From NCBI GenBank assembly GCA_005878385.1, contig VBMN01000081.1, positions 1 through 33,354 of the forward strand: a stretch of 33,354 bases of DNA. The letters are read 5' to 3'. Of this stretch, positions 7,254-31,295 are shown piece by piece. Every line of letters starts with the position of its first letter. The stretch's first letter is position 1. The notes below the pieces were generated by a model, which saw only the letters and a program-made list of their open reading frames with translations, was not told the origin of the DNA and searched no databases. A program made the translations under genes and the position numbers. Origin of the DNA: Methanobacteriota archaeon. GTDB taxonomy: Archaea > Thermoplasmatota > Thermoplasmata > RBG-16-68-12.

Positions 7254-8105
7254 CTACCAAGTGACGTGGTATTCGCAACAGGGGTCACCCGCGCGGACAC
7301 ACCGGACCTTCCGCACCTGGCCATCGATGCCTCGCCAGTGAAGGATGCCCTCGTAGATCCCGTGGAACATGGCGCACATCGCGGGCGTCGGCATCCAGTC
7401 GAAGTGACGGAGGTCGGCGCTCCTCGGGGTTGTCTCGACCTCGAGCCGACCGAAGTTCCACTCCTTCGCATATACGACGGGGGCCCTCTCGGACAAGGCG
7501 CGCAAGGACATCCGGCGGGCGAGCTCCCCGCGAATCGTCGGGAAGGAAGGGGCCGTCGTGGCGAACACCGCGCGGATGAAGGCGTAGCTCCCGTCCCCGA
7601 ATCGCGCCTCCACCAGCTCGAGGAGTTCGGCGCACGCGTCGACGGAGATCCAGGAGTCTTCGGTGATCTCCCGCGGGTCGATCGTCCACGATCGGATGGC
7701 TCCGTCAAGGGCCTCCTTGCCCTTGGAATCTCGGAGAGCCGCGAGAATCCGGAGGACGCTGGAGCCTCGAATCTTCGGGACGAATCCGACGTACGGGGTC
7801 CCACGGGCAGACGCCGGAACGAACCGACGGCTGGAGCGATCGAAGTAGGCGAGCAGCGTGACGCCCGCCTCCGTGACGCCGTAAATCCGGCCGCGGGCTT
7901 TCGCCTCGGGATTGAGGCATTCGACAAGGCCTCGCCCTCCCATCTCCCGGAGCGCTCGGCTGACGTGCGTGATGCGGAGGGTCGTTTCGCGGGCGACGTC
8001 CTTCGGGAACTTCGGTTTGCGCGACAAGGCGTTCAGGACGCGTTCGCGATAGCCGCTCGCCGCCACGAAACTGAAATCGGACCAGACATGGCTGCCGGAC
8101 TCCAT
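7254..8105 (-). CDS. ArsR-like winged-helix regulator fused to V4R/HNOB-like C-terminal sensor domain
   Basis: N-terminal wHTH (YRERVLNALSRKPKFPKDVARETTLRITHVSRALREMGGRGLVECLNPEAKARGRIYGVTEAG); C-terminal ...IYEGILHWRGIDGQVRKVRCVRAGDPCCEYHVTW like the end of V4R-type domains. ATG at 8105 preferred. Confidence 0.78.
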   Translation of the reverse strand: MESGSHVWSDFSFVAASGYRERVLNALSRKPKFPKDVARETTLRITHVSRALREMGGRGLVECLNPEAKARGRIYGVTEAGVTLLAYFDRSSRRFVPASARGTPYVGFVPKIRGSSVLRILAALRDSKGKEALDGAIRSWTIDPREITEDSWISVDACAELLELVEARFGDGSYAFIRAVFATTAPSFPTIRGELARRMSLRALSERAPVVYAKEWNFGRLEVETTPRSADLRHFDWMPTPAMCAMFHGIYEGILHWRGIDGQVRKVRCVRAGDPCCEYHVTW

Positions 8106-29294: not shown

Positions 29295-30014
29295 TCACCT
29301 CTTCCGACCGCCGGCACCGCCGCCGACGAGCCCGTACACGGTCAAGGCGACGTACCATCCGACGCCGACCCAGCTGTATCCGATCCCCAGGATCAATGCC
29401 GTGTTCAGCCGATGGTTGAACTGCGCGAAGCCGTCGGCCCCGGGGAGCATGACGCCGGAGAGTCCGAGGATCAAGGATGCAATGACGCCCGGTCCGATCA
29501 GGTACCGTCCGAGGAACTTGCGGCGCTGCATGAGGCGCTGACGCTTCGAACCGATTTTGGTGTCGTCCTCGTCGCCACCAGACGAGCGACCGCCCGCGGA
29601 CGGATTCGCGTCCATCGCCTGCGCCTCCCGGCTCGCGTTCGCCTCCACCTCGCTCAGGCTCTCGAGGAGCTCGTCGATGTCTCGGTCCACCGTGTCGCGC
29701 AGGTTCGACTGCGGCTCCGGCAACGGAGGCGGGAGCGCCTCTTGCGAGGACTGCCGCACCACCGCGCCGAGTCGCGCATCGACCTCGCGGATCTGCCGCG
29801 AGAACGACGCCCGGATGCTAAGGCCGAGGCCGGCGAGTCCCACGAGGAAGATCGCGGCGACGAGCATGTATGTGGTGTAGATCCAACGCGTGATGTCCGC
29901 AGGATACCAAGCCGCCGAAAGGCCCTGCGCGAACTGCCACGAGGCGATGCCGATGATGGCAAAGTAGATGCCGAATCCCGCCGCGAGCACGCGCGGTCGC
30001 AACTGCCTCGCCAT
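29295..30014 (-). CDS. Conserved membrane protein with about 4 TM helices and acidic/charged central loop
   Basis: TM helices at both ends flanking a charged region VDARLGAVVRQ...DTVDRDIDELLESLSEVEANASREAQAM; TATA-like ATATATTT about 27-34 nt upstream of ATG 30014. Confidence 0.78.
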   Translation of the reverse strand: MARQLRPRVLAAGFGIYFAIIGIASWQFAQGLSAAWYPADITRWIYTTYMLVAAIFLVGLAGLGLSIRASFSRQIREVDARLGAVVRQSSQEALPPPLPEPQSNLRDTVDRDIDELLESLSEVEANASREAQAMDANPSAGGRSSGGDEDDTKIGSKRQRLMQRRKFLGRYLIGPGVIASLILGLSGVMLPGADGFAQFNHRLNTALILGIGYSWVGVGWYVALTVYGLVGGGAGGRKR

Positions 30015-30040
30015 TCGCACCCCGCCTGATTCGGGACCGG

Positions 30041-30175: not shown

Positions 30176-30730
30176 ATGGGATTCCAAACGCGTTCGTCAC
30201 GGTTTGTGCTCCGGGAAGTCCTATTGGTCGGCCTCGCGGCCGCCGCCGCGTTCGTCTTCATCAACCACGACAATCTCTACCTGTCCCATCCCTTCCGCCT
30301 CGCGGACGCGCGGATCGAGTCGTATGCCCTCGCGACCGCGATGATCTATCTGTTCCTTCGACTCGTGATCGTCGCACTGGAACTGCGCCCGCCGCGATCG
30401 CATGAGGAACTGGTCCGGTGCCCGGAGTGCGGATAGTGGCTCGACGATCCGACCGCCGCCGGCCTGGAGGCCCACCGCCGGATCGAGCTCACGCCGAAGC
30501 CGTCGCGGAAGGAGATCGTCTCCGCGGTCGCCCTTCGGAAGGCGGTGGACGCGGCGCGCCGTGGGAACCTGAGGCCTCCGCATCCCGGCGTCGTCGAGCC
30601 GAACCCCGCGGTCCCGAATCCGACGAACGTGACGAGCGAGGATCTGGTCGCGGCCCTGAACGACCCGGACTTCCTCGAACGGGCAAGGCACAGCCCGGAG
30701 CCGCCGGTCGATCGGCGCCTCAAGCGCTGA
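30176..30730 (+). pseudogene. Two-TM protein with C-terminal CPECG zinc-finger-like segment, interrupted by in-frame TAG at 30434-30436
   Basis: ATG at 30176 after GGAGGAG; frame reads ...EELVRCPECG-TAG-WLDDPTAAGLEAHRRIELTPKPSRKEIVSAVALRKAVDAARRGNLRPPHPGVVEPNPAVPNPTNVTSEDLVAALNDPDFLERARHSPEPPVDRRLKR-TGA (30728-30730). Could be a pseudogene, a readthrough/recoding case or a sequencing error. Confidence 0.72.
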
Positions 30731-31295
30731 GGCCGACGAACACGAGGAGCTCCTCGAGCACTCGATACGTGAAGCCCCAGATCAGCCACTCGCGGTGCGT
30801 GTACGAAGGCACGAGCAGTTCGCCCAGGATCGTGGGCACGAGCGTCTTGCCTTGGGCCGGCGGCAGCTGCGCCAGGGGCGTCCAGAAGACGGCGGTCATC
30901 TCCGGGCCGGGAGTCGGCTCGACGGGTGCGGACGCGAGGGCCACGAAGGGGACGACGAGCAATTCGGGCTTGTTTCCCGGAGCCCGCGGCGCCATGTGGC
31001 CGAGGACCTCCGCACGGCCGTTCAGGTCGATCCCGACCTCCTCGCGCGTCTCACGGATCGCCGTGTTGAGCAAGGTCCCGTCCTCGGCATGGTGTCGTCC
31101 GCCGGGTAGGCCGACTTGTCCGGACCACGGGTCGCCCTCCCGTTTCCTCCGTTCACCGAGGAGGACCTCGAGGCCGTCCGGCTCCTCCCGCAGCAGGATC
31201 ATGACCGCGGCCGCCGGTTTCGTCTTCAGTTCGGCCTCCGCGAGTTCCAGCGGGAGCAGGAATTTTCGCAGCCGTTCGAGCGACGCGTTCGACAA
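30720..31295 (-). CDS. Nudix hydrolase, CoA pyrophosphatase (NudL)-like
   Basis: GLEVLLGERRKREGDPWSGQVGLPGGRHHAEDGTLLNTAIRETREEVGIDL, Nudix box in NudL-like context. Confidence 0.93.
   Translation of the reverse strand: MSNASLERLRKFLLPLELAEAELKTKPAAAVMILLREEPDGLEVLLGERRKREGDPWSGQVGLPGGRHHAEDGTLLNTAIRETREEVGIDLNGRAEVLGHMAPRAPGNKPELLVVPFVALASAPVEPTPGPEMTAVFWTPLAQLPPAQGKTLVPTILGELLVPSYTHREWLIWGFTYRVLEELLVFVGLSA

Follow-up and report, generated by a model that had tools for sequence, protein, structure and literature searches.

The locus and the question

Does the amber codon that interrupts a small membrane-protein gene in this archaeal genome end the protein, stand for an amino acid, or reflect a wrong base in the assembly? 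The window (the whole stretch of DNA analysed, 33,354 nucleotides, contig C166) belongs to a metagenome-assembled draft genome of 1.87 Mb in 179 contigs, 77% complete. The organism, probably one of the Thermoplasmata, is very likely a soil archaeon, as its near relatives are metagenome assemblies whose sample names give depths in centimetres. A single forward-strand frame runs from an ATG at 30176, with a Shine-Dalgarno-like GGAGG upstream, to a TGA at 30728-30730 and holds one in-frame TAG: 86 codons lead up to the motif CPECG, the TAG follows as codon 87, and 97 sense codons remain before the TGA (joined protein of about 184 residues). Sequence and translation agree with the frame described in the initial annotation, as they do with the tail-to-tail overlap reported there: the TGA of the neighbouring Nudix-like gene lies at 30720-30722 on the reverse strand, and the two genes share 11 bases. 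The features of the region are as follows.

29295..30020, reverse strand: gene for a 241-residue membrane protein, conserved divergent neighbour
30176..30433, forward strand: 5′ half of the gene, with two predicted membrane helices (residues 4-35 and 47-69) and the first part, CPECG, of a zinc-finger-like motif
30434..30436, forward strand: in-frame TAG, codon 87; CAA or CAG (Gln), GAG, AAG or CGC in relatives
30437..30730, forward strand: 3′ half of the same gene with its TGA stop; it evolves under purifying selection and encodes the almost invariant H100 as well as the conserved helix PSxKEIVSAVALRKAVDAAR
30720..31295, reverse strand: Nudix-like gene (a putative name, from the initial annotation), conserved convergent neighbour; overlap 30720-30730

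Both neighbours are kept beside the gene in most related loci. An internal restart after the TAG was considered and is unlikely, as the sole in-frame start codons there are GTG 30545, within the conserved helix, and GTG 30629.

Homologs and conserved residues

The joined protein was searched against 100 related genomes. It is present in 15 of the 19 genomes of the genus (source genome counted) and in two of three genomes of a second genus in the family, with one marginal match farther out; 15 other genomes of the order among those searched lack it. Judging from these sequences, the family is a lineage-restricted small membrane protein with a zinc-finger-like motif. Eight homologs from seven congeneric genomes (G001, G004, G007, G008, G014, G016 and G018) align over nearly their full length with no stop, and the nearest five (84%, 83%, 68%, 68% and 63% identity) span practically the whole 184-residue length stop-free. 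These five have CAA (Gln) at the TAG position, and farther copies have CAG, GAG, AAG or CGC; in terms of residues, the eight congeneric homologs carry Gln (CAA, CAG) or Glu, and more distant copies Lys or Arg. No stop was seen at this position in any relative: the stop is not conserved. The homolog comparison that the initial annotation had proposed therefore returned glutamine in most copies, and its view of a single continuous gene broken by a TAG fits orthologs that read through in the same frame. Two outcomes that it had named for testing were looked for: no homolog ends at CPECG, and homologs of the 97 downstream codons exist in that frame. No second copy of the gene was seen in the source genome (77% complete).

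Conservation spans both sides of the TAG. Invariant in the alignment are E14, A21, H31, L34, Y58, L59, L61, C82, C85 and G86 before it and P109, L120, R121, A123, D125 and A127 after it. The family’s most conserved helix is encoded within the 97 codons 3′ of the stop, and the block AHRRIELTPKPSRKEIVSAVALRKAVDAAR is the same in the source protein and both nearest relatives. The idea that a C-x2-C...H motif is completed downstream is borne out by the invariant C82, C85 and G86 together with the nearly invariant H100. A low-confidence structure model (pTM 0.36) has two long helices, a further helix at 111-132 and, where the CPECG...H motif lies, a short hairpin with a helix.

Copy number and, apparently, integrity vary within the genus. 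One genome (G014, contig C48, 24799-27661; L007, L019, L021) has two tandem full-length paralogs about 130 bases apart and a third, partial family match about 1.5 kb beyond them; from such sequences the family appears to duplicate and diverge inside the genus. In another (G015, contig C142; L020, 1495-1761), an 88-codon open reading frame with the same neighbours has lost roughly residues 36-133 in frame, which takes out the zinc-like motif along with membrane helix 2, through either a true deletion or an assembly collapse. Given this internally deleted copy, loss of the gene seems to be tolerated in the genus.

TAG elsewhere in the genome

Called open reading frames end in TGA 520 times, TAG 202 times (about 25%) and TAA 77 times. 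About 1.0 Mb of the source genome, including the window, was compared with 0.76 Mb of the relative G014: 58 of 62 TAG-ended genes stop within 10 codons of the end of the G014 homolog, as do 173 of 188 with TGA and 24 of 27 with TAA. No other convincing TAG-interrupted gene appeared in the roughly 80,000 aligned codons of this comparison, which covers about half of the genome. One TAG-interrupted alignment (L119) proved on six-frame inspection to be the antisense reading of a conserved gene encoded on the opposite strand, and the remaining stop-interrupted alignments, judged by where they lie and by mismatches in codon position, resemble shadow frames or genes with over-long starts. The codon-position filter is imperfect: it labelled the window case itself a “shadow”, since the 45%-identical paralog used for it is saturated. 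Within the window, the TAG stops listed earlier at 7254 (reverse strand), 11410, 11888, 16005 and 28898 are all TAG, and the accompanying judgement that genome-wide reassignment is unlikely accords with the share of TAG stops and their placement at homologous ends. TAG is a working terminator here, and there is no sign that it is read as an amino acid.

The tRNA complement was also surveyed. Among 34 above-cut-off tRNA hits there is none with a CUA anticodon, in a 77%-complete draft from which some tRNAs are missing; one hit (contig C80) has a CAT anticodon, read by eye, and tRNA-Gln(UUG) is present. Introns in tRNA genes are common in archaea, and here ARAGORN places introns of 32-39 bases in tRNA-Tyr, tRNA-Met and tRNA-Lys (contigs C7, C19 and C129).

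Constraint on the downstream half

An open frame past the TAG is in itself weak evidence of coding, as about 22% of stops in this GC-rich genome (21-24% for each stop type) are followed by at least 97 open codons, and the lack of further stops in the 3′ half is likewise uninformative by itself. Codon usage says more: the score of this extension was matched or beaten by only three of 327 extensions of at least 40 codons, in line with the coherent downstream codon usage remarked on earlier. Homology goes further and shows that the 97 downstream codons are coding.

How long the stop has been there can be approached through selection. Parsimony counts on the window branch looked relaxed after the TAG (13 S : 1 N before it, 2.5 S : 7.5 N after), a reading overturned by a codon model of the eight homologs that gives each half an omega of its own. 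In that model omega for the 3′ half is 0.157 on the window branch, compared with 0.132 in the background; setting it to 1 on that branch costs 7.0 lnL units and is rejected, and with M0 and M1 only 1.2 lnL units apart for two parameters, omega of this half has not risen significantly. No more than about 20% of the window branch could have been neutral for it (lnL drop of 1.92). Constraint implies that translation of the 3′ half went on during most of the interval that separates this lineage from its closest relatives, and hence that the stop is young, that complete protein continues to be produced, or that the base call is incorrect. It argues against an old truncation. No second lesion, whether a frameshift or a further stop, was seen in the 3′ half, an absence equally expected for a recent allele, for readthrough and for a base error.

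Explanations for the stop

The most likely explanation, and a probable one, is that the gene, an ortholog intact in every other respect, recently acquired a nonsense mutation; a consensus error or minority-strain base comes next, and then leaky readthrough. Glutamine is the most likely ancestral residue (encoded by CAA in the closest relatives and by CAG in others), and TAG could have arisen through a CAG intermediate followed by a C-to-T change. A nonsense mutation was among the origins suggested by the initial annotation, and a change from Gln to TAG fits the codons of relatives; counting against it, the CAA of the nearest relatives needs two base changes to become TAG. Under ordinary decoding the ribosome would release a product of 86 residues in which both membrane helices remain but half of the metal-binding-like motif and all of the conserved C-terminal helix are missing, and with these parts lost the allele is probably loss-of-function, its product presumably inactive. 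The base itself is presumably real in the organism.

A less probable explanation, though one of some weight, is that the base is an assembly or consensus error, or comes from a minority strain in the metagenome, and that the main population has a sense codon. One base away from CAG is enough, the draft genome is fragmented, and the 3′ half combines full constraint with the lack of any other lesion. Against this, the site has no homopolymer or repeat, the CAA of the nearest relatives is two bases from TAG, and the sampled half of the genome contains no other clearly stop-interrupted conserved gene, which argues that the assembly is not error-ridden.

It is improbable that termination is leaky, with a near-cognate tRNA-Gln or an unseen amber suppressor reading the TAG and so sustaining both full-length synthesis and the constraint. 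If UAG were misread by a near-cognate tRNA, the glutamine of relatives could be restored, and the genome has the tRNA-Gln(UUG) for it; the continuing constraint on the 3′ half fits as well. Opposed to this are the lack of a CUA-anticodon tRNA among the hits in this incomplete genome and of a second candidate gene in the genome comparison. Nor are there signs of programmed readthrough: relatives have no stop at the site, and the RNA after the TAG gives no hint of a stimulatory structure, its computed fold being no more stable than those of shuffles (fold z-score 0.12). The specific claim that full-length protein is made by glutamine-inserting near-cognate or suppressor readthrough, in an archaeon without pyrrolysine, is more doubtful still. 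If true, it would be a kind of archaeal stop readthrough beyond selenocysteine and pyrrolysine, the only ones named as demonstrated in a 2021 review (PMC8211752).

Slightly less credible again is selection for a stable protein of 86 residues, with the 3′ half in decay: the parsimony counts had pointed that way, but the codon model rejects neutrality for that half without a significant rise in omega, and the block shared with both nearest relatives is unchanged. Pyrrolysine, raised in the initial annotation, can practically be set aside: the class does have Pyl genes (PylD above cut-off in eight of the 100 genomes, all of one family), but PylD is unmatched in the source genome and never exceeds its cut-off in the 11 other genomes sampled from the order, PylS gives only two sub-threshold hits in the source genome (19.8 and 19.7 bits, the cut-off being 178, scores also reached by ordinary synthetases of control genomes), the genome being 77% complete, and relatives encode glutamine at the site.

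As it stands, a single premature stop in a single gene of a single draft genome carries small weight; only peptides that demonstrated readthrough would give it importance, as no pyrrolysine system is seen in the genome. In practice, automatic annotation will call a truncated protein that misses the conserved C-terminal half.

Comparison with known systems

The protein resembles zinc-ribbon and C2H2-like zinc fingers (PF24460, PF13248) in its C-x2-C-G...H spacing and predicted short hairpin plus helix, but its matches fall far below Pfam cut-offs and it has just three conserved ligand-type residues. With the archaeal pyrrolysine amber genes mtmB, mtbB and mttB it shares an in-frame TAG with continued homology beyond; it differs in the kind of protein, in the glutamine of relatives and in the lack of detected Pyl machinery (PylS, PylD). 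The closest likeness is to an ordinary premature stop or young pseudogene, that is, a single stop at a glutamine position of an intact conserved gene, in a genome that otherwise ends genes with TAG. Nothing tested sets the gene apart from that class, and the fact that no second lesion has yet accumulated points to a recent origin.
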